Of a DNA stretch of 25,618 nucleotides, positions 2 through 24,970 are shown piece by piece. The notes under the pieces are model-generated. The model did not search any database, was not told where the DNA came from, and saw only the letters and a program-made list of their open reading frames with translations. The DNA is taken from positions 1 to 25,618 of the IMG/VR virus record IMGVR_UViG_3300010370_000214; one strand, given 5' to 3'. A program made the translations under genes and the position numbers. This DNA is from a virus. Positions within the stretch are counted from its first letter, which is position 1. Every line of letters starts with the position of its first letter.

Positions 2-1456
2 GTAACGGGGCCACAAGGTATTACTGGCCCAACAGGAGCCACTGGTATTCAGGGTGCCACAGGTGCAGCAGGTTATTCTTCAAGCTTGTTTAAATACAAT
101 GCAAAGACATCAACCACAACAGGCGATCCTGGTGCAGGCTATTTAATTTGGAACAATGCCACGCAAACAAGTTCCACAAGCATTAGTGTTAGTCATTTAA
201 CAAGCGACAGCGTTGATGCTGATATCTTTTTGGCTTTATTAGTTCAAGAAGAAAAGTTAACAATTCAAGATCAAAGCGCAAGCGCTAACTATCAAACTTG
301 GAAGATCAATGGCACGCCATCAAATACAAATCCTGGAGCAGCAAACAGTTACTGGACGTACCCCGTAAGTCTTGTGGCTTCAGGCGGTACTGGCACATCT
401 AATTTTTCAAATAACCAAGCTGTTTTCTTGGCGTTGGTTAATGGTTTATCTGGACCTACTGGCCCCACTGGAGCTACCGGTCTGCAAGGAAGTACAGGTC
501 CAACAGGTGCGACAGGTATAGCCGGTACAGCAGGGGCGACAGGAGCCACAGGCCCACAAGGTGCTACAGGCGCTATTGGCATTACTGGTGCTACAGGAAT
601 CCAGGGTGCCACAGGTGCCACCGGAGCAACAGGTGCAATTGGCATCACAGGTGCTACAGGTGTTCAAGGTGCTACAGGTGTCCAAGGTGCTACAGGCGCT
701 ATTGGCATCACAGGTGCTACTGGTATTCAAGGTGTTACAGGTGCTACAGGGCCCACTGGCCCTCAGGGAACCCCTGGTGGGGCAACTGGGGCCACGGGAG
801 CCACTGGTCCAGCAGGTACAAACGGCGCCACAGGTGCTACTGGCCCCGCTGGTACAGACGGTGCAACGGGTCCAACAGGTGTTACGGGCGCGACAGGCCC
901 TGCAGGCAGCGGTGGCGTCTCCCTCGCGAGAATTGATACTAGATATTACTTTCCCTATGGAGTTAATGCTGCTTCTACTACAAATGTAGTAATAACCGCA
1001 AATCGTGTTTACTATACAGCTTTTGTTAATACAACGACAACGACTTGGACCGAAGTAGGAATGAGGGTGACGACTGCGGCAGGAAGCTCTGCATTGCGTT
1101 TTGGTGTATATGCAGCCGGCTCTTCTGGCTTGCCAACAACATTACTTCAAGATTTTGGAACAGTTAGCTCTACTACAACCGGAACAAAAACAATTACGAT
1201 ATCATACCAAATGGATCCGGGTGTCTATTATCTGGCCTACACTTCAAACGGCGCTCCAACACTGGGCGGTTCGTCACTTACTGTTGCTTCTGTGACATTT
1301 TTATATGGATCACATAGTGCTGGGGTTACAGCTAGCATTGCGCTTTGGTACGAAGACCCTGGCCTAAGCGGTTCTTTGCCAAGTACGGCAAATACCTCAC
1401 TTTCTTTCCAAGATACTAGCCTTGTCAGGGCATATCCCTGGTTACGAATCGCTTAA
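2..1456 (+). CDS. Collagen-like tail fibre/adhesin protein, 5' end outside window
   Basis: Probable virion fibre or spike protein. The frame is open from base 2 with no stop, and its first 24 codons already read as Gly-X-Y triplets, so the gene starts left of the window; the TTG at 86 is only an internal codon. Domains in order: a collagen-like block (2-73), a globular domain of about 125 residues (about 74-451), a long Gly-X-Y block rich in GAT, GPT, GIQ and GIT triplets (452-916), and a C-terminal beta-rich domain of about 180 residues ending in LRIA. The globular insert resembles a domain common in phage collagen-like proteins. The C-terminal domain is a likely receptor-binding or trimerisation head (inference). 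The glycosyltransferase-methyltransferase gene follows after 10 bases. Collagen-like and structural nature is clear; exact virion position is not. Confidence 0.85.
452..916 (+). repeat. Gly-X-Y collagen-like coding repeat
   Basis: About 155 codons of nearly unbroken Gly-X-Y triplets, with Thr, Ala, Ile, Gln and Pro in X and Y. At the DNA level this gives 9-base periodic repeats built on GGTGCTACAGG-like units, with one break at the GTPGGATG stretch. Such tracts expand and contract by slippage. A shorter block of the same kind is at 2-73. Confidence 0.9.
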
Positions 1457-3506: not shown

Positions 3507-3863
3507 ATGTTTTGCAGCCAGCACGAGCCCCTCGCCCTGCTAGTTGAACTAAAGCCAAAACTTGCAAAAAAACGTTTCAGAGAAGAGATATATAAAGCTT
3601 GGGACCATAAATGTGGCTATTGCCAAGAGCCGGCAACAAGTTTGGATCACGTAGTACCTCGTTTTAAATCTGGTTCATCTAATCGAAATAACCTGGTTCC
3701 TTGCTGTCGACGTTGCAATTCAAATAAAGCGTCTAGCAATATGGAGGAGTGGTTTAAGCAGCAAGAATATTTTACGGAAGAAAAATTAGCTAAAATAAAA
3801 ACCTGGATGGAAAATGAAATCATTAACCTATCTAGCTTCAAAGATCACTACCTTGCTTCCTGA
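3507..3863 (+). CDS. HNH endonuclease
   Basis: A 118-aa HNH nuclease of the common Cys4 zinc type. It shows CGYC, then DHVVPR with the first active His, NNL for the Asn, and CCRRCNSNK closing the zinc site. Such enzymes cut one or both DNA strands; in phages they are free-standing homing nucleases or packaging helpers. No ribosome site is visible before the ATG. Its TGA stop shares one base with the ATG of the next gene (TGATG at 3861-3865), so the two are probably translated in coupling, which is unusual for a selfish homing gene and may mean a useful role. Which role cannot be read from the sequence. Confidence 0.85.
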   Translation: MFCSQHEPLALLVELKPKLAKKRFREEIYKAWDHKCGYCQEPATSLDHVVPRFKSGSSNRNNLVPCCRRCNSNKASSNMEEWFKQQEYFTEEKLAKIKTWMENEIINLSSFKDHYLAS

Positions 3864-11792: not shown

Positions 11793-14267
11793 ATGGCATT
11801 CGGTACTCTAAAAGTAGACACGCTTACCTATACGGACGGTATTGGGGAAGCCAATATAACAGTCTCAGGTATTGCAGAAAATCTGGGACGAAACCTAACA
11901 GTTACCGGGACTGTATCCGGTGATGTTGTCATTGGGGGTACGCGGGTTTACGGCCTTACAGTTACTGGCGTCAGCGGTTTATTTACTACGGTTACGGGAA
12001 CAACTTCTCGTTTTACAACACAAAGCGGTGTAACTTTTACTGGCACCACTGCTAATTTTGTAAGTGGTGTCTTCACGACACAAGTATCAGGCGCCGTTAT
12101 TACTGGTGATACAGGTCGTTTTACAACCTTTACAGGAACAAATGTAAACGGTGTAACGGCAGTATTTACGACAGGTACTTTTACAGAAGTATCCCCATTA
12201 GCATCGCTTACTGTAACCACAGGAATTGTTGGCAGCGGCAGTGCCGCAAGTCCTGGACTTATTGCGATTGGGGACGTTGATACAGGTTTATACTTTCCAG
12301 GAACCAATCAGATTGGTATTGCAACAAGCGGTGTTGGACGTGTCCTGGTAGATAGTTCCGGCAATGTAAATATTGATAGCGGTGTTTTTTATATTGATGC
12401 TGCAAATAATAGAGTTGGTGTTAATAAAACAAATCCAGCAACAGCGTTTGATGTTTCTGGGACAGTTACTGCATCAGGCTTTACAGGACCATTAACCGGT
12501 AACGCATCTACTGCGACCACATTACAGACTGCACGTACTATTAACGGTGTTAGTTTTAATGGTTCTGCAAATATAACGATTAGTGGTAGTACAACTAATG
12601 CGGCCACTTTTGACGCAGGCGGAACGGGCGCTACTGCTGGAACCACATTTGACGGAAGCGTTGCTCGAACAATTTCCTACAACACAATTGGCTCTCCAAG
12701 TATCTCTGGCTCCAATGCAACTGGTACCTGGGGAATCAGCGTAAGCGGAAATGCTGCAACCGCAACAAAACTTGCAACTGCACGCAACATTAACGGTGTT
12801 GCATTTGATGGTACGGCCAATATTACGATTCCCGCAACGGCCGCTAATGCTGTTACTTTTAACAATAGCGGCACGGGAAGCGCTACAGGTATTACCTATG
12901 ACGGTAGCACCGCAATTACTGTTTCTTACAACACACTAGGTGCTCCTAGTGCCACAGGCGCAAATGCATCTGGCACGTGGAATATTGCAATCCTGGGCAA
13001 TGCAGCATCCGCCACTGCTCTACAAACAGCACGCAATATTAATGGAGTTAGTTTTGATGGTACTGGAAATATCACAATCACAGCCAATACCACAAATACT
13101 CTTACGCGCGGTTCTTACTTAACAGGAGACAGCTTTAACGGATCACTTGCAACTACATGGGCAGTAGATGCAACAACTACCAACACGGCAAGTAAAGTTG
13201 TTGCGAGAGACGCGTCTGGTAATTTTGCAGCGGGTACAATCACAGCGTCTTTGAGTGGCAACGCATCTACTGCAACAATATTACAAACCGCACGTACAAT
13301 TAACGGCACTTCTTTTAACGGTTCAGCAAATATTACAATTACAGCGGTAAATCCTTTTTCTCATACAAACGGATCTTATTTAACCGGTAGTGCGTACGAT
13401 GGATCCGGTGCTGTTACCTGGGCTGTTGATGCAACATCTACAAACACCGGAAATAAGGTCGTAGTCAGAGATACTTCTGGTAATTTTGCCGCAGGTACAA
13501 TTACAGCAAACCTTACCGGAAATGCAAGCACTGCCTCAACATTTCAAACGGCACGTAATATTAATGGCACTTCTTTCAATGGATCTGCAGATATTACGAT
13601 TACAGCAAACACTACAAACGCATTGACATTCAACAACGGTGGAGCAGGTGTTCTTTCAGGAAGTACGTTTAATGGCAGTGGTGCAGCCACGATTTCCTAC
13701 AACACCATTGGTGCACCAAGCACAGGAGGCGCTAACGCCACTGGTAATTGGGCAATTAATATTACCGGTTCTGCTGCAACATTAACAACGGCACGCACAT
13801 TTACTATTGGTAATACTGCAAAAACTTTTGATGGCTCTGCAAGCGTAACCTGGACATTAAATGATATTGGATGCGGAGACGTATTTGCCACCGGTATCCA
13901 AACACTTACAAACAAGACAATTGCAGGCGGTATTTATACAAGCACTGTTGATGTTACCGGCTCTTATAGAAGTGGAATTACAACAATCGCTGCCAGTAAT
14001 ATTGATTGCAGTGCGGGAAATTATTTTACAAAAACCATTTCATCAAACACTACTTTTACGATAAGCAGCGTACCTGCGAGTCGCGCTTATTGTTTTACGC
14101 TTGAATTACAACATGACAGTGGAGCAGTGACATGGTTTTCTGGTGTAGAGTGGCCAGGGGGGATTGCACCAACGTTGACAGCTGGCAAGACTAGTTTGTT
14201 TATCTTTGTTACTGACAACAGCGGAACACGTTGGCGCGGTGCATTCTTAGCTAATTACACTAACTAA
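11793..14267 (+). CDS. Long tail fibre with repeated modules
   Basis: An 824-aa fibre protein for host recognition. AAGGA lies seven bases before the ATG. Residues about 1-230 are Thr/Val/Gly-rich beta repeats (VTGTTSRFTT and similar). Residues about 236-603 carry five full copies of a 28-residue unit, ending INGVSFxGxANITI, separated by SYNTIGxPSxxGxNATGxW units or SYLTG...TWAVDATxTN units. A short C-terminal domain with FTKTISSNTTFTISSV and an LFIFVTDNSGTRWRG end probably makes the tip or trimer. The composition and repeats match phage tail fibre repeats. The propeller-like protein starts one base after its stop. Confidence 0.88.
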   Translation: MAFGTLKVDTLTYTDGIGEANITVSGIAENLGRNLTVTGTVSGDVVIGGTRVYGLTVTGVSGLFTTVTGTTSRFTTQSGVTFTGTTANFVSGVFTTQVSGAVITGDTGRFTTFTGTNVNGVTAVFTTGTFTEVSPLASLTVTTGIVGSGSAASPGLIAIGDVDTGLYFPGTNQIGIATSGVGRVLVDSSGNVNIDSGVFYIDAANNRVGVNKTNPATAFDVSGTVTASGFTGPLTGNASTATTLQTARTINGVSFNGSANITISGSTTNAATFDAGGTGATAGTTFDGSVARTISYNTIGSPSISGSNATGTWGISVSGNAATATKLATARNINGVAFDGTANITIPATAANAVTFNNSGTGSATGITYDGSTAITVSYNTLGAPSATGANASGTWNIAILGNAASATALQTARNINGVSFDGTGNITITANTTNTLTRGSYLTGDSFNGSLATTWAVDATTTNTASKVVARDASGNFAAGTITASLSGNASTATILQTARTINGTSFNGSANITITAVNPFSHTNGSYLTGSAYDGSGAVTWAVDATSTNTGNKVVVRDTSGNFAAGTITANLTGNASTASTFQTARNINGTSFNGSADITITANTTNALTFNNGGAGVLSGSTFNGSGAATISYNTIGAPSTGGANATGNWAINITGSAATLTTARTFTIGNTAKTFDGSASVTWTLNDIGCGDVFATGIQTLTNKTIAGGIYTSTVDVTGSYRSGITTIAASNIDCSAGNYFTKTISSNTTFTISSVPASRAYCFTLELQHDSGAVTWFSGVEWPGGIAPTLTAGKTSLFIFVTDNSGTRWRGAFLANYTN
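12498..13601 (+). repeat. Five imperfect 84-base fibre modules
   Basis: Five copies of a 28-codon unit (GNASTATxLQTARxINGxSFxGxANITI) begin at about 12498, 12750, 13002, 13254 and 13518, spaced by one or two intervening modules. A sixth, broken copy lies near 13770. The DNA copies differ mainly at third positions, so selection is on the protein. Confidence 0.8.
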
Positions 14268-17818: not shown

Positions 17819-18723
17819 GGTCTGTTTGTCAGCGGAACAAGGATGCTGGGGAAGGGATCATCCTCATGATGTTCATTCTCCCATGCTTGCTTCCAGGCGG
17901 AAAGCGAATGATCATGTATTGTGTCGAAATAAGCATCATCCCCTGGCTCCAATATAATTTTGTTTTGTTCATTTTCTGGAGCCGTGCCAATATACCAAAT
18001 GCCCAATCCTTGAATTGTTACAGTAATACCGTTGTTGATGATACAGCTTTGATCCGTGAAAGCATAAGAATTATCAAGAACAGTTGTATTAATTGCAATT
18101 GGAGAAATAATGTTTTCCGTAAAAGGAGTGGACTCTTGTAGAGCAACACTTCCGTCTTCGTCTTCTAATTCAAAAAATGCAATTGTTTCTTGGAATTCAA
18201 CAACAACAGCAACGTTGTAGGCTATTGGTTCATTGCGTGTTGACGAAATGCAAATTAAGTAGCTACCTTTCTCTAATGGATAGTAGCGTTCATCGCCACG
18301 ATCAAGGCGAACAGAAGAGAATTGATTATATAAATCTGATTGTGTATTCATTACCGTATCTAAATACGGTATATACACTTGTCCGTTAGAACTTGTTGCT
18401 AAAGAATCTGCCTCAAATATGGCATTACCTTCGATGGGTATTTTATCAAGGTCGTAAGCAGATACCTGAATGTAATTAGGCCTAGGTGCACCTTTGACAA
18501 GAATAATCCATGCCGGAGCCTCAATATTAATCTGGAACCAATGGTTGTAAGTGCCGCCACCAAAACCACCATTGGAGTTTTGGAAAGTGTCTGCATAACC
18601 AATAACACGATTCTTGGGGCCCAGAGAACCGTGCAGATTACGAGCGGCAGTTTCCGAAAAGGTACCAAGAACCAGGGGGTTTGCCTGGGTCCGTTGAGGT
18701 TGACTCAACTGGTTTCTTGCCAT
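17815..18723 (-). CDS. Unknown beta-rich protein (302 aa), probably virion
   Basis: No named family. After a Gln/Ser/Asn-rich start (MARNQLSQPQRTQANPLVLG) the protein has many alternating hydrophobic strands with Gly/Asn/Pro turns, such as NHWFQINIEAPAWIILVKG, YYPLEKGSYLICISSTRNEP and ITVTIQGLGIWYIG, typical of jelly-roll or Ig-like virion surface proteins. The C-terminus is acidic and helical (AWKQAWENEHHEDDPF). No signal peptide or membrane segment. It overlaps the upstream HNH-like gene by 19 bases and couples to a tiny downstream gene. Confidence 0.72.
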   Translation of the reverse strand: MARNQLSQPQRTQANPLVLGTFSETAARNLHGSLGPKNRVIGYADTFQNSNGGFGGGTYNHWFQINIEAPAWIILVKGAPRPNYIQVSAYDLDKIPIEGNAIFEADSLATSSNGQVYIPYLDTVMNTQSDLYNQFSSVRLDRGDERYYPLEKGSYLICISSTRNEPIAYNVAVVVEFQETIAFFELEDEDGSVALQESTPFTENIISPIAINTTVLDNSYAFTDQSCIINNGITVTIQGLGIWYIGTAPENEQNKIILEPGDDAYFDTIHDHSLSAWKQAWENEHHEDDPFPSILVPLTNRP

Positions 18724-19421
18724 TCGGATTGGTAATACTGTATATATTCACTATCATAATCGGAGTTGTTTTGGTTAACTAAAGGGTTCTGGATGGTGCA
18801 CTTGTAATAACGCTCGCGTAATACTTTGAGTTGATTTGCATCTTGCACTTGTTGATACTGCATTAATTTCTCAGGCTGGAAAGCATAATCAAAAGGGCTG
18901 ATCACACTGGGAGGAAATAAGCGGTTCCAATTTGAGACCAAGTGAAGAGGGTTGAGACACGTTTTGTTCCCACATACTCTCGTCACGAACAACGCACCCA
19001 CATCCCCCCAAGCGCATTGGTAGATCGCCTTGTGGGCGGTGACGTTGGTTGACTTGTCCCTGGCGTACAGCGACCGGTAGGAGGGCAAGCAGATGCGTTT
19101 CTGCGTCAATCCCGATGCCTCCCAGCACTCACCAGGGTCGCCAACCGCTATCTGGTTCCACAGGTCCGCATACTTGCGTTTGTACTCCTCCTGCATGTAG
19201 TTCAAGTCGAAACCACAGATGTTGTCACGAATTTTGCCGGCGCACAGATAACAGGAGTGATTGTCAAGCAGGCGAATGTCGTGTCCATGGGGGCAGGGAT
19301 AGCCCTTGTAAAGCCCGTTTGCCGTTAGTTCATCAGTACTAAGCCGCTCGGCATTTGGTACGTAGCGGAAAGAGTCGTGCTCCTTTACCAGGGAGGCGAT
19401 CTTTTTGGGGATGTTTGCCAT
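18705..19421 (-). CDS. HNH/His-Me finger-like protein with catalytic His replaced
   Basis: A 238-aa protein. I chose ATG 19421 (MANIPKKIASL); the frame extends to 19517 but that part lies in the inverted-repeat region. Residues 43-60 have a zinc-finger pattern (CPHGH ... CYLC). Residues about 94-165 fit the phage HNH plan CWEASG ... AHKAIYQ ... CGNKTCLNPLHL, with zinc ligands Cys150, Cys155 and His160 as in I-PpoI-type enzymes. The His expected two residues before the first Cys is Arg148 (VTRVC), so cutting activity may be lost. It may then be a DNA-binding protein; the adjacent inverted repeats are a possible target (inference). Confidence 0.75.
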   Translation of the reverse strand: MANIPKKIASLVKEHDSFRYVPNAERLSTDELTANGLYKGYPCPHGHDIRLLDNHSCYLCAGKIRDNICGFDLNYMQEEYKRKYADLWNQIAVGDPGECWEASGLTQKRICLPSYRSLYARDKSTNVTAHKAIYQCAWGDVGALFVTRVCGNKTCLNPLHLVSNWNRLFPPSVISPFDYAFQPEKLMQYQQVQDANQLKVLRERYYKCTIQNPLVNQNNSDYDSEYIQYYQSEWQETS

Positions 19422-19449
19422 GAATTGAAATGAGATGGAGTGGATGGGT

Positions 19450-19659
19450 GGACTTTCCGACTTTACCCCCGGTTTCACCTTTATTCTAAAAACTTCCCTT
19501 ACATTTCGGGGGGTCAAAGTGTAAGGGTTTCTTACCGTGAGACCAAGCTGAGAACGTGATCCTACTACCCTTACACTTTAACCCCCCAAAGTGTAAGGGC
19601 TCTCGTGTGATTAAAGATAGAAATACCCCCAAAGTCGGAAAGTCCGCCCAAAGTCCGAC
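19450..19659. repeat. Nested inverted repeats in a gene-free stretch
   Basis: The 320-base gap 19422-19742 holds no gene. The outer pair is a perfect 15-bp inverted repeat, GGACTTTCCGACTTT (19450-19464) and AAAGTCGGAAAGTCC (19631-19645), with a further AAAGTCCGAC at 19650-19659. Inside are two palindromes: CCCTTACA/TGTAAGGG (19496-19527, loop with GGGGGG) and a perfect 12-bp stem CCCTTACACTTT/AAAGTGTAAGGG (19568-19599, loop AACCCCCC). The G-run and C-run loops can also pair with each other. The symmetry suggests protein-binding sites: a replication origin, operator or recombination site. Confidence 0.75.
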
Positions 19660-19691: not shown

Positions 19692-19719
19692 AAAAAAGCC
19701 CCTGCTTTTCAGCAGAGGC
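19692..19719 (-). terminator. Rho-independent terminator of the glycosyltransferase gene
   Basis: On the minus strand a 9-bp stem (GCCTCTGCT / AGCAGGGGC, one U-G pair) with loop GAAA is followed by six T's, 24 bases after the stop of the gene ending at 19743. Confidence 0.88.
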
Positions 19720-19742
19720 CGGGTCACCCATTCGTCGCCCGC

Positions 19743-21044
19743 TTACTTTACGGCACCTGCCAGCTCACGACGCATCGGTTTACCTTTCTTCTTACGTGCT
19801 TTGGGCTTCTCGCCAATCTCAACATTGATCTCAGGTTGGACTGAGTGATCCACCTGGTTCATCACATCCTCAAAGATGCCGCCAAATTGAGACGCAACTG
19901 TATCCCATGAGAATTGAGGATCAGTAGCCCGCTGGTAGCACTTCTCACCAATCTCGTCGCAGATCTCAGGAACCTCGTACAGTTGGTCTAGGATCTCTAC
20001 CAGGTGTTCGGAGGAGGGGCAAGGCATCTCACGTCCGTAATTGGTATCCACATCAACGTGGTCGCAACGGATCAGCTCCCCATAGCCCTCAAAGATCTCC
20101 TTACATGATGTATGGTCAGGCACCACCTGGGGCACACCACATGCAGCGTGTTCAAAGTTGACAAGACCCCAGCCCTCACCTTTGCAGGTGTTAATGCCCA
20201 CATCACAGGCGTTATAGATGGTGTTGAGCATGTCCACTGATACGTTCGGCGGCCCTTCCGTCTGTGCCGTCATGATGATGCGCCCGTTGGGATCCAAACC
20301 CACCCTTGACATTTCCCTACCGAAGAGGCTCATCACATCCCAGCCCTGGTCCTTCATGCCCATGTGGAGGTACAGGCGGGCATCAGGGCGTCCGATAGCA
20401 AACTCAGCAAATGCCTTGATGGTGATGTCAATCCGTTTACGGAACTGATTCCTGTTTCCGTTGAACACGATGAAAAGGTCTTCATCAAGACCCAGCTTGC
20501 GACGACATTCCGCTTTGTCCTTGGGATAGAACTGACCAGGTGTAACACCGTGAGGGATGACGGCAATCGGCTTATTGATGCCACCTTTCACAAATTCGTG
20601 TGCACCAAATTCCGTATAGGAAATGATGGAGTCCCAATTGTTGGCGGTATCGGCTAGGCAACCAATCCACCCATACGAATCCATTGGCGCATAACCAACG
20701 AACTTGAACTTACCTGCTTTGTGCAGGTCTTCAATTTGCCGGTATTGCTCATTAATAATCCACATATCGTTAATTGAAAAAACGATATCCGGCTCTTCTT
20801 TCTCTACGATCTCTCGAATGCGCTGCTCACCAAAAGGCGCCGTTTGGAACCGGTTGGACGACGGATACATCTTGAAATCTTTCTGTTGATCGCACGGATC
20901 ACCCCACCAGTTGTGGCCGAGGACAACAATCTCAAAATCATCCTTCAGGCGATAGATGACGTTTTCAGTGACGCGTGCGAAGCCAGTCATGGCGACAATG
21001 TCACCACACCACAATACTTTTGTTTTCTTTGTCAAGGCAATCAA
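19743..21044 (-). CDS. Glycosyltransferase, GT4-like
   Basis: A 433-aa GT-B fold sugar transferase. The start motif WCGDIVAMTGFARV (about 12-25) is the usual N-terminal acceptor loop. FNGNRNQFRKRIDITIKAFA (about 194-213) is the linker strand-helix with Arg/Lys residues for the phosphate. E290-x7-E298 in GEGWGLVNFEHAACG is the retaining GT4 nucleotide-sugar motif. The C-terminus is basic (KPKARKKKGKPMRRE). No ATG is in reach: TTG 21044 is the only start between the upstream stop and the GD motif besides a TTG at 21035. It has its own promoter-like motif and terminator, so it is a one-gene unit. Target could be a virion protein, DNA base or host glycan; sequence does not tell. Confidence 0.85.
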   Translation of the reverse strand: MIALTKKTKVLWCGDIVAMTGFARVTENVIYRLKDDFEIVVLGHNWWGDPCDQQKDFKMYPSSNRFQTAPFGEQRIREIVEKEEPDIVFSINDMWIINEQYRQIEDLHKAGKFKFVGYAPMDSYGWIGCLADTANNWDSIISYTEFGAHEFVKGGINKPIAVIPHGVTPGQFYPKDKAECRRKLGLDEDLFIVFNGNRNQFRKRIDITIKAFAEFAIGRPDARLYLHMGMKDQGWDVMSLFGREMSRVGLDPNGRIIMTAQTEGPPNVSVDMLNTIYNACDVGINTCKGEGWGLVNFEHAACGVPQVVPDHTSCKEIFEGYGELIRCDHVDVDTNYGREMPCPSSEHLVEILDQLYEVPEICDEIGEKCYQRATDPQFSWDTVASQFGGIFEDVMNQVDHSVQPEINVEIGEKPKARKKKGKPMRRELAGAVK

Positions 21045-21104: not shown

Positions 21105-21998
21105 ATGAATCAAGCTGCGCTTGCCGGGAAGTTTCTACAGTTACAACAAAATGATTTATTTCAAGAAGCTGTAGAAGGAACGCTACTTGGCGGAACAGCA
21201 GGCCTTACCCAACTTGGTACTGACACGCCGCCAGCTCAGGTTGCGATTCAAACCTTGGCGGGAATTGCTGGCGGTGTAGGCATTGGCTTATTAGGAAAAT
21301 CTATTGGAGCACGTATAGGTAAAGCAATTAATCCTAACGCTTTGAAAAATCAAGAAGGCGTCTTAGCAACTATAGGCCGAACAACAGGACAAAAAACTTT
21401 AGCTAAAGGAGCAGCCGAACAAGCTCGCTACGCAAAAGGACAGATTAAACAAGAGATAAAAGAGCAAACTTCCGCTCAACTTTTAAACGAAGCTTTGCAA
21501 AATCCACAAGCATTTGCTGGTAAATATGGAGTTAATCCTGAAACTTTTAAAAAATATCATACGTCCGTAGGAGCGGCTAGCCAAGCACGTGCCGGGCTGG
21601 AGACATTGGAAAATCTTTCTCCAGAACAACGCAAGCAACTAGGCGCTACTGCTCAACAAGTAATGGAACAAGGGTTTAATCAAGTTGAGAATTTAATTAA
21701 TACTCAAGCTGCAGCGCATTTAGATAACAATCTTATGAAAATGGCAATGCTCAATAAGAGCAAAACCGTCCCCGGAACGGATATAAACATTGGATCTGCG
21801 TTTGAAGCTCTTTTAAAAGATGCAAAACCAATTACTGGGGAACACTTGGGACGCGCAGCAGGCCGTTTTATTGGTGATGAAGTAGGCGTTGCTCTTGGGA
21901 TGGGTCTTGGCGGCGCGCTATCAGGAGCACTTGGTATCAAATCAGAAAAGGATAAAAAGATTGAAGAACTAGAACGCCAGCTAGGTCGGAGTTACTGA
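21105..21998 (+). CDS. Glycine-rich helical protein (297 aa), possible internal virion protein
   Basis: No named family. Two glycine-zipper-like hydrophobic stretches lie at each end: about 28-66 (LLGGTAGLTQLG, then LAGIAGGVGIGLLGKSIG) and about 250-280 (AAGRFIGDEVGVALGMGLGG). Between them are Gln/Ala/Lys-rich helices (KGAAEQARYAKGQIKQEIKE). Such glycine-rich segments can enter membranes, and phage ejection proteins often have this make-up. It is a lone plus-strand gene between minus-strand genes and overlaps the end of the convergent speD by 18 bases. The last residues (KDKKIEELERQLG) form a short coiled coil. Confidence 0.7.
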   Translation: MNQAALAGKFLQLQQNDLFQEAVEGTLLGGTAGLTQLGTDTPPAQVAIQTLAGIAGGVGIGLLGKSIGARIGKAINPNALKNQEGVLATIGRTTGQKTLAKGAAEQARYAKGQIKQEIKEQTSAQLLNEALQNPQAFAGKYGVNPETFKKYHTSVGAASQARAGLETLENLSPEQRKQLGATAQQVMEQGFNQVENLINTQAAAHLDNNLMKMAMLNKSKTVPGTDINIGSAFEALLKDAKPITGEHLGRAAGRFIGDEVGVALGMGLGGALSGALGIKSEKDKKIEELERQLGRSY

Positions 21999-22331
21999 CC
22001 GTTCTAACTCTTTCTGCGCTACAGTACCTGCTTTTAACTTCTCCGATAAAAATCTTGCGGCCTTGTGTGTTTGTGTAGTATCACCACAAGTGTAGAGGTC
22101 GATTGCACAATACCCAATCTCAGGCCAGGTATGAATCGACGCATGCGATTCAGCGAGTAGTGCCAGCAATGTCACGCCTTGCGGCTTGAATTTTTCACCG
22201 ATGATGCGTAAGATCGTAGCTTTTGCCATCACAAGAGAAGCCTCTAACAATCGTTGAAGCTCCTCGTAATCATCAAGGATCCCTGGATCACAGTCATAGA
22301 GATCCAAGATGAGATGGCGTCCGTTGCTCAC
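21981..22331 (-). CDS. speD: S-adenosylmethionine decarboxylase proenzyme
   Basis: A 116-aa prokaryotic-type AdoMet decarboxylase. It makes the aminopropyl donor for spermidine; polyamines help pack DNA and keep ribosomes working. The proenzyme cuts itself between Glu61 and Ser62 (LLAESHASIHTWPE) and Ser62 becomes the pyruvoyl group. His67 and Cys82 (YTCGD) are the processing and catalytic residues, in register with the bacterial enzyme. speD is known from marine cyanophages. The GTG start overlaps the primase-helicase stop (GTGA at 22328-22331), so it is translated with a replication gene and probably made early. No speE lies in the window, so host spermidine synthase would finish the reaction. 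Confidence 0.93.
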   Translation of the reverse strand: MSNGRHLILDLYDCDPGILDDYEELQRLLEASLVMAKATILRIIGEKFKPQGVTLLALLAESHASIHTWPEIGYCAIDLYTCGDTTQTHKAARFLSEKLKAGTVAQKELERSVTPT

Positions 22332-24970
22332 ATGTCTATTGCATTTTCATCCATTATCTCATCGGTAGTTGTTGATAAGGAGGCCCCATAGAATTCGCTG
22401 TACTTTTCGGGGTTAGCCGCAACCTCAACAATGGAAGGATAGCTTTCGTACTGCGTTTTATTTGAATCGCGGACAACAGCATTTACGATGCGTAGTCCTT
22501 TGCTGTTCTTGACGCCGTAGACATTGATCTTCAACTGGTGACGGCAGATGTCTAGGAACAAGGGCTCAAAACGACCACGCGACATGATGCCAACGTTGCA
22601 ACTACGGCAAAATTCTGCATAGCTTGCATAGAGCCATTTGTCCCAGTTGTCGTAGTAACCGGAGCTACCGCCCGGCTGCACCTTACAGAAGCCAACGGGA
22701 GAGCTGACGTTCGGATCAAAGACAACTTTATGGTCCATCCAGTCCAGTAGTGGATTAGAGCGCAGGCTTTGCGTCTTCTCATACCGCTGGAAGAACGAGA
22801 CATTCTTACCAGTTTCCATGAGATAGGAACGCATGTCCTCCTCTGTCATATCCAGCAACCAGTTGACGAGACCAGCCAGGAGAGGAGCAAAAACACCTTG
22901 CGGATTACCTTTGTTGTCAAATTTGATTAGTTCTTTTTGTTCTGCTTGGCCACCGGCAAACGGACGGTCGAAAGGAATGGTCAAGCGGCGACGAGCAAGA
23001 CCAGATGTGTAATCAGTGGATTGAATGGCTTCGTTAGCTGTAATCATGACCATCCCGTGGTACTGGAATGGATCTTGACTTTCCGTTTGATACTTACGTT
23101 CCGAGCGAATCCAGTCACCACCCGTGATTGCTTTTAGCTTGGAGACAGAACCACCCCATCGATCAACATCCTGGAACAGCAACAGCTTTTTACCCATGTA
23201 ACTTGCGGCCTCAAACCGGTTCTTCTCCAGGTTTTCAAAGTCTGTTGAGTAGGTGTTTTGCTTACCAACCAATGCAACAGCAAGGTTTGCGTAGGTGGAC
23301 TTACCGGACTTACCAGGTCCCACGATTTCAACAAACTTCTGAATTTCATGGCGCCCCAGCAGTGTTGCCCTGAGCCAGGCACGCAGAACTTGTGCCCGCT
23401 GGTAGCTGTCATGCTGCGTATGCTTCAGCCATTTAATAATTTCTTCACATGTGGCGGCAGGATCGTAGTCGTAGGGCATCTGCTGCGTGAGGTAAAGATC
23501 CCGCTGGAACTCCATCAGATCTTTAGTCTCAACATCCAAGACTCCATTAGTGAATAGCAGATACCTGGAGCCGTCGTACCATTCATCAAAAGGAATAATC
23601 GATTGCAGTTGCGAGTAAATGTCGTTCATGAGGTTCGTGCTGAACCCTTTGAACTTTTCGTTTTCTACGGTGACAAGGGTTTTGAGCTTTTCGCGCAGGC
23701 TCCCGAGCATCTCAACCTTTGTTAAAGGTTCCCATAATCCTTTCCGCTGGTCATATAAGAAGAACTGACCATGAGGTTGACTGTACCGGAGATTGCCTGT
23801 ATACATGTCGAACACACGATCCGCAATGACATCCGATGAAAGCCGCTTATCTTCCTTCTCTTCTTTTTTCTTGCTTGTTTTCTGCGCCAGCATTTGGTGC
23901 GTATTACTCCAAGCCTCAGCTTTATCTTTCTCAACCACCGCTGGAACAGATGCCATTTGTTTTAAATCCTCGTCAATTTGTTCAACCAGTTTTGAAACAT
24001 GCTCCAGTGTCTCATCATCAACACCAAACGCACGATAGTCCTGAGAAGGAGACCAACCATTCTCCTTTGCCATGTGGAAAAGAGTCCCAGCCGTGCGGCC
24101 ACCACCCTTTGTGAAGGAGAGCCAGCGTCTATGGCATTCACCTTCTTGATACTTCTCCGATTGCCTAGACCAGGCATCCCATTCGTCTAGCAAGGATTCA
24201 TCAACGGAATGAAGCGTCTGCCCAACAATGATCCAGAGATCGTAGTCGTCTGCAACTTCAGGAGGTAATGCCCAAGCCGCTTCCTTTGCGTTTTGAATTT
24301 CCCGTTCTTGTCCAATTGTTGATTGAACAACACTGCCAGCTGTTACTCGCCGCGTAATTTCCTGCGGAGGTTTACCTTGCTGTACGTTTTTATTAACGAT
24401 ACCGTGCAGTAACCAGGCCGGCATTTCCGGCAAACGATCAATCCATTCAAAACCCTGCCCTTCTGCGGTGAAGTAACCATCGGTCTCTGGATGCAAGCCC
24501 ATTAACACCCCTTGGTGCCGGGTCCAAAGAATCTCAAGTTTTTCGTCGGCTACTTCTTTGCTGTGCCAGACGTACTTATTACGGAGAAAAGAGTCGTGCT
24601 TTCTTTTTTCTACGCGGTATAGCTTGCGTTCGCGTCCAGGCTTACCGCTCAGAATGGTGAGCGTTGGAGGAAGTGCATCGTTGAACGGAAGACCAGAGAT
24701 TTCTTCCACAAGTTTGTAGATGCTTGCTCCATCCACATCAACCCAAACCAAACCGTAGGGATGATTAAAGACAGGACCCCCATGGAGACCAACCGCTTTG
24801 CACTTACCTGACAGAAGTTCTTTTTCAATTTCATCAGCGCTGAAAGGCCGCTTTTGCCAACCAAGTACATAAGGATCTTTCTGTGCACCGAGCGGAGTAA
24901 AGGGCCAATCAATAGGGAGGAGATCCAGTCGAATTTCCCCTGGTTTAACAGCGTATTGCTTCTGCGTCAT
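22328..24970 (-). CDS. Primase-helicase: Prim-Pol-like N-terminus, SF3 (D5) helicase
   Basis: An 880-aa replication protein. Residues about 25-190 look like a Prim-Pol-type primase/polymerase domain (KCKAVGLHGG, then GLVWVDVDG with likely metal-binding acids). About 228-310 fit the PriCT-2 linker (LPPEVADDYDLWIIVGQTLH; WLSFTKGG). About 380-500 are the D5-N region. From about 545 comes the SF3 helicase core: Walker A GPGKSGKST (about 551-559), Walker B LLLFQDVD, the motif C strand GMVMITANEAIQSTD and ARRRLTIPFDRPF. This type primes and unwinds DNA at an origin. Its ATG overlaps the stop of the upstream small gene (ATGA) and its stop overlaps the speD start, making a tight three-gene run. Confidence 0.92.
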   Translation of the reverse strand: MTQKQYAVKPGEIRLDLLPIDWPFTPLGAQKDPYVLGWQKRPFSADEIEKELLSGKCKAVGLHGGPVFNHPYGLVWVDVDGASIYKLVEEISGLPFNDALPPTLTILSGKPGRERKLYRVEKRKHDSFLRNKYVWHSKEVADEKLEILWTRHQGVLMGLHPETDGYFTAEGQGFEWIDRLPEMPAWLLHGIVNKNVQQGKPPQEITRRVTAGSVVQSTIGQEREIQNAKEAAWALPPEVADDYDLWIIVGQTLHSVDESLLDEWDAWSRQSEKYQEGECHRRWLSFTKGGGRTAGTLFHMAKENGWSPSQDYRAFGVDDETLEHVSKLVEQIDEDLKQMASVPAVVEKDKAEAWSNTHQMLAQKTSKKKEEKEDKRLSSDVIADRVFDMYTGNLRYSQPHGQFFLYDQRKGLWEPLTKVEMLGSLREKLKTLVTVENEKFKGFSTNLMNDIYSQLQSIIPFDEWYDGSRYLLFTNGVLDVETKDLMEFQRDLYLTQQMPYDYDPAATCEEIIKWLKHTQHDSYQRAQVLRAWLRATLLGRHEIQKFVEIVGPGKSGKSTYANLAVALVGKQNTYSTDFENLEKNRFEAASYMGKKLLLFQDVDRWGGSVSKLKAITGGDWIRSERKYQTESQDPFQYHGMVMITANEAIQSTDYTSGLARRRLTIPFDRPFAGGQAEQKELIKFDNKGNPQGVFAPLLAGLVNWLLDMTEEDMRSYLMETGKNVSFFQRYEKTQSLRSNPLLDWMDHKVVFDPNVSSPVGFCKVQPGGSSGYYDNWDKWLYASYAEFCRSCNVGIMSRGRFEPLFLDICRHQLKINVYGVKNSKGLRIVNAVVRDSNKTQYESYPSIVEVAANPEKYSEFYGASLSTTTDEIMDENAIDM

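Follow-up and report, generated by a model that had tools for sequence, protein, structure and literature searches.

An imperfect 206-bp palindrome, kept as symmetry rather than as sequence, is a proposed replication origin of S-EIV1-like cyanophages

The window, i.e. the whole 25.6-kb IMG/VR record analysed here, contains a gene-free block that forms a single imperfect palindrome of 206 bp, composed of outer arms, two inner palindromes, a G-run and a C-run. We propose that an S-EIV1-like freshwater cyanophage starts its replication at this block, which would be the site of initiator loading and an origin of the type put forward for pRN1 and BPP-1, a reading to which we assign a probability of roughly 0.6. 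An earlier note on the same DNA had suggested an origin, an operator or a target of the neighbouring HNH-like protein; among these, the origin is now best supported, because dozens of relatives keep a symmetric DNA structure downstream of their Prim-Pol/SF3/winged-helix gene, an arrangement also found in pRN1 and BPP-1, and the operator and the HNH target stay in play as rivals.

Results

The block is one long inverted repeat

Judged by its sequence, the window is an S-EIV1-like cyanobacterial virus (cyanophage): its primase-helicase is 56% and its HNH protein 41% identical to those of Synechococcus phage S-EIV1, and the two share the same gene order. The block was indeed found to be free of genes and to lie between the terminator and the HNH gene HNH-B (Table 1), whose ATG at 19421 is kept in relatives. 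Elsewhere in the window, a second, separate HNH endonuclease gene is located at 3507-3863 (+), distant from the block, and positions 86-1456 (+) encode a collagen-like protein with glycine-rich repeats that may be a tail fibre.

Table 1. Positions of the block, its parts and the neighbouring genes in the window
Feature	Position	Strand	Remarks
Dyad block, imperfect 206-bp palindrome, proposed replication origin	19445..19650	.	self-complementary alignment; equivalent gap compared in 90 loci
Outer left arm TGGGTGGACTTTCCGACTTT, two GACTTT-type repeats	19445..19464	+	
Outer right arm AAAGTCGGAAAGTCCGCCCA, inverted counterpart of left arm	19631..19650	+	
AT-rich segment, left arm (TTTCACCTTTATTCTAAAAA)	19473..19492	+	counterpart in relatives conserved as TATATAAAGATAAAA
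AT-rich segment, right arm (ATTAAAGATAGAAAT)	19610..19624	+	
Inner palindrome 1, G6 loop 19508-19513, ACACTTT/AAAGTGT box	19496..19527	.	
Inner palindrome 2, C6 loop 19582-19587, two ACACTTT/AAAGTGT boxes	19568..19599	.	
TGAGAC word, central spacer	19538..19543	+	
HNH-family endonuclease gene HNH-B, start adjoins block	18705..19421	-	phrog_1872 E 1.9e-10; conserved HK, cysteine, NPLH residues
Intrinsic terminator, primase-speD-glycosyltransferase side	19697..19720	-	
Glycosyltransferase gene, upstream of terminator	19743..21044	-	
speD (S-adenosylmethionine decarboxylase), gene order shared with relatives	21981..22331	-	
Primase-helicase: Prim-Pol, PriCT_2, D5_N, DUF5906 (SF3)	22328..24970	-	
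Primase C-terminal winged helix, residues about 737-839	22454..22762	-	structurally nearest P4 origin-binding domain

Aligned to its own reverse complement, the block matches over 206 bp with 67% identity (E 2e-10). In a dynamic-programming scan that scores imperfect inverted repeats, it reached 102, the highest of 170 tiles of the window, the next unrelated tile scoring 49. When folded as single strands, both strands likewise formed a single long hairpin (z -7.5 and -8.9 versus shuffles), and no shuffle folded as well. The individual elements described in the earlier note are present: the perfect 15-bp outer repeat (GGACTTTCCGACTTT at 19450-19464 pairing with AAAGTCGGAAAGTCC at 19631-19645), which extends to 20-bp arms paired at 19 of 20 positions, the two inner palindromes (CCCTTACATTTCGGGGGGTCAAAGTGTAAGGG and CCCTTACACTTTAACCCCCCAAAGTGTAAGGG), and a further copy, AAAGTCCGAC, at 19650-19659 (+), which is kept in the nearest relatives.

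The finer folding claims required adjustment. The near-complementarity between the downstream half of the first palindrome and the upstream half of the second was borne out, the figure being 20 of 21 positions (19508-19528 versus 19567-19587) and not 19 of 20. Two hairpins and one long stem, offered as alternative folds, fare equally well within the near clade, where 119 and 123 pairs, respectively, are preserved across the six nearest sequences, and the block as a whole is better described as one long imperfect palindrome. Pairing of the G6 with the C6 loop has both of its runs in the window and is not general: it fails in two loci, L104 and L099; in the former, each loop carries a C-run, both on one strand.

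Symmetry is conserved among relatives while the letters change

Motif and protein scans yielded 90 distinct loci in which primase-helicase, speD, glycosyltransferase, gap and HNH follow one another in this order, the HNH gene not being found in four of them. Counting as significant an inverted repeat that scored above all shuffles and above 45, we found one in the gap of 69 of the 90 loci, compared with 1/90 inside the primase gene and 2/90 further downstream; the corresponding median scores were 77.5, 33 and 32. The 69 repeats have a median span of 209 bp, arms of 91 bp and 75% Watson-Crick columns. In the gaps of the remaining 21 of 90 loci no significant inverted repeat was detected, and the repeat of S-EIV1 itself is weak (score 53). 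One locus, L131:10001-12640, showed primase-helicase matches in more than one reading frame, indicative of a frameshift or an assembly error.

The letters of the arms are a different matter. Arms of the GGACTTTCCGACTTT type are common to six close sequences, and other lineages have entirely different ones (AATTCATGTCAAA, AAAAACCGGTATA, AATCGACAAATGC, AAAATCCGATAAT, AAAACAGAGAATA, AAAACCGGAATGA and others); despite these unrelated letters, left and right arms match each other within each phage. Co-variation of the stems in related genomes, the check that the earlier note had called for, is therefore what is observed: paired letters change and symmetry stays. A mobile element or MITE was rejected as an explanation, as the block always occupies the same syntenic place, has no plasmid match and turned up once, as a stray match, among 85,000 genomes. 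Copies of the window motif in hosts or satellites were discarded as well, since only S-EIV1-like contigs were matched, plus one likely chance match (L006).

The primase-helicase is a likely partner of the block

All four domains of the primase-helicase listed in Table 1 scored above their Pfam cut-offs, so that Prim-Pol and SF3 are combined in one replication protein as in the pRN1/BIP-1 type. Its helicase part is 30% identical to P4 alpha and also resembles the solved primase 7OLA. For residues 690-880, AlphaFold predicts a winged helix (pLDDT about 90 over the domain), which would supply the C-terminal DNA-binding domain of pRN1/BIP-1-type proteins. The best structural match of this model is 1KA8, the P4 origin-binding domain (Foldseek E 0.009, prob 1.00; by VIA, Z 9.4, 3.1 A over 93 residues), suggesting a P4-type origin-binding winged helix; the next matches include other winged helices, the C-terminal domain of the African swine fever virus PrimPol and ORC/Cdc6 initiators. 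The N-terminus is Prim-Pol and not the TOPRIM-type primase domain that goes with P4-type origins.

Short words are enriched in the gap

Two short words recur in the gap. CACTTT/AAAGTG, seen in the window as the ACACTTT/AAAGTGT box, is about 10-fold enriched there in 41 loci, and TGAGAC/GTCTCA is present in the gap of 55 of 69 loci, at 4.10 per kb versus 0.46 elsewhere (about nine-fold). As both are steadier than the outer arms, we infer that they are better candidates for sequence-specific contacts of an initiator. GTCTCA-3-TGAGAC pairs (start-to-start 9) occur at times in the gaps. In one locus, L114, the gap between glycosyltransferase and HNH genes (about 13500-13600) holds six near-perfect tandem 11-bp units, ATGACACTTT; these units (ATGACACTTTA/T), with an inverted counterpart, are an expansion of the inner box.

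Such words could also belong to a regulatory region, in which a promoter and dyad operators of the HNH-g302 transcription unit would be bound by a phage repressor or activator. The block follows a terminator and stands immediately 5' of the HNH gene, in 54 of 69 loci A and T are more frequent in its right arm than in its left, TATATAAAGATAAAA is found near the ATG in relatives, and the words are enriched in this gap. We nevertheless consider this explanation unlikely: the arms are symmetric and face outward, yet a gene reads away on one side only; a scan for sigma-70-like promoters was empty; within the window, ACACTTT plus its flank occurs in the block alone, which argues against a regulon; and the paired letters vary as the symmetry stays, as outlined above for the proposed origin.

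Outer cores switch in concert, probably together with a small HNH gene

Two loci, L147 and L205, have primases that are about 99% identical, with winged helices identical at 100%, and nonetheless carry different outer cores, CCGGA in one and CACAC in the other, from which it follows that the primase cannot dictate the outer core. Each core is present in three copies (left, centre and right); the three 13-bp copies have changed in concert, and neighbouring differences between the arms stay. Over the block and a small HNH gene (HNH-A), identity between the two loci falls to 65-77% and then returns to about 95%, suggesting that block and HNH-A were probably exchanged as one cassette, within the first 650 bases after the glycosyltransferase stop. 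HNH-A (phrog_99-like, about 117-130 aa) is an optional gene: 52 of 69 loci have it, placed between the block and HNH-B, and the window lacks it.

In line with this exchange, the block might be a target or footprint of HNH nucleases, i.e. part of a cassette for homing or interference, made up of block and HNH gene, that passes from phage to phage, the block's core being altered to escape self-cutting. The identity dip in L147/L205 covers both partners, and HNH-A relatedness tracks core type and not primase (L145-L147 84.6%, L146-L205 78.4%, other pairs 70.9-76.1%). Furthermore, GACTTT-type cores are found in 15 of 17 loci without HNH-A versus 11 of 52 with it (Fisher p 1e-6, raw), and similarity of the inner block tracks HNH-B. 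However, HNH-A adjoins the block, so linkage alone explains a joint swap; the core association, which we keep as a lead only, is not significant on the primase tree (2.7 versus 0.2 independent pairs); in 26 loci no partial correlation with HNH-A is seen; and the window clade has the block without having HNH-A. Taken together, we regard this explanation as decidedly unlikely.

Outer arms and the SF3/C-terminal portion of the primase were significantly associated in 58 loci (partial correlation -0.18, 0 of 500 permutations); the association was gone in a 26-locus subset and, for the outer core, is contradicted by L147/L205; co-evolution of the two was accordingly not retained.

GC skew carries no origin signature at the block

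A cumulative GC-skew minimum at the block, suggested in the earlier note as a check, was not seen: in the window the block lies near a maximum, and in the complete S-EIV1 genome, with a minimum at 35.3 kb and a maximum at 74.5 kb, the block (7.9 kb) is at neither. These S-EIV1 extrema (L014/L015) are 39.1 kb apart in a 79.2-kb circle, i.e. at 180 degrees, as might be expected of an additional or alternative origin and terminus at these places. At the block itself, skew falls from about +0.09 to -0.02 (69 loci), a step opposite in sign to that of an origin, so that a skew signal was abandoned as evidence; its sign is that of a terminus or simply of the end of a replication operon.

The terminus-like switch, the strong dyad and the matched cores with variable letters, which resemble recombination crossover sites, would also suit a site of another DNA transaction, such as dimer resolution, replication termination, packaging or segregation. 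This is very unlikely in our estimation, given that no recombinase or packaging gene was seen in the conserved neighbourhood and that the position of the block is tied to the replication operon.

Mismatches in the arms comprise 345 G.T versus 425 A.C, with no preference for the gene-sense strand, and this lack of an RNA-like excess of G.U over A.C suggests that the block most likely acts as a DNA element. Transcription across the block into a structured RNA (a leader or a regulatory RNA), with which the strong folding of either strand would agree, is extremely improbable and was discounted on the same grounds, together with the lack of any Rfam match at gathering score in the window.

Discussion

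The proposal of a replication origin draws on the palindrome, its structural conservation, its position, the domain make-up of the replication protein and the enriched words. From these, we infer a model of binding, bound word, melting and bidirectional start: the primase-helicase would bind repeated sites in the two inverted arms, and hexamers would assemble facing each other on the block. The AT-rich arm segments and the central palindromes would then melt, the palindromes possibly being driven by supercoiling into a hairpin or cruciform, and both forks would be primed by the primase-helicase.

What outer-core switching leaves to be explained is why a matched core changes quickly while the initiator does not. 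One speculation, to which we give little credence, is that the outer core serves as an identity tag, for which any letters would work if all copies in one phage match. The block would travel with a small HNH nuclease attacking origins with other tags, and co-infecting phages would compete through origin-directed nucleases, whereby cores diversify.

In the literature searched, we found no description of an origin for S-EIV1-like phages. For this widespread cyanophage lineage, a predicted 206-bp minimal origin and its putative initiator can now be named.

Among known systems, the proposed origin and its putative initiator can be compared with phage P4, whose alpha protein has the related SF3 helicase and binds its origin through a winged helix that shares its fold with the one predicted here, but has a TOPRIM primase where Prim-Pol is found here. 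P4 replication uses iterons at ori plus a second site, crr.

Origin modules that are swapped are known from PLE, with its ori and RepA, and ICP1 Odn, a phage nuclease aimed at the origin, is a model for the HNH lead (PMC8263062). Unlike PLE RepA, which changes with its origin (PMC8263062), the primase described here can stay while the outer core changes; no homology is claimed.

A close parallel is the Sulfolobus plasmid pRN1, whose replication protein ORF904 likewise joins Prim-Pol, SF3 helicase and C-terminal winged helix. There, a 100-nt stem-loop behind the replication gene and terminator is a required cis element that restored replication when moved elsewhere; the stretch is kept among pRN plasmids as a stem and not as sequence, a stem mutation was rescued by restoring symmetry, and no specific binding of the replication protein to linear DNA was seen (PMC4234260). 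In both systems a large inverted repeat lies 3' of the replication gene, beyond a terminator, and it is the base pairing, not the sequence, that is conserved. The pRN1 loop, about 100 nt, stands directly behind its gene, whereas the block is about 206 bp with repeated words in its arms, and speD and glycosyltransferase genes (2.7 kb) intervene. The helical linker domain here is PriCT_2, as in BIP-1 and unlike pRN1.

For phage BIP-1, an origin of this stem-loop type was proposed by the pRN1 authors (PMC4234260). Applying the same scan downstream of the BPP-1 primase, we obtained an inverted-repeat score of 80 (shuffle maximum 52); weaker inverted repeats were present at this place in Javan472 and LincolnB, and three further SF3 phages, LR797314, R9Y2 and Vibrio 1.032, showed none behind their primases. 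BIP-1/BPP-1 share with the window a Prim-Pol/PriCT_2/SF3 protein and a downstream inverted repeat with tandem repeat pairs per arm (TTGCCTCGTTTGCCTCG) and an inner hairpin; their repeat, itself a putative origin only, differs in sequence, is shorter (133 bp) and adjoins the primase gene. A stem-loop origin as a kind is already known as a proposal; its spread across a phage lineage and the concerted core switching are new, and they take stem-loop origins for Prim-Pol/SF3/winged-helix initiators from a single-plasmid, single-phage proposal to a pattern across dozens of natural variants.
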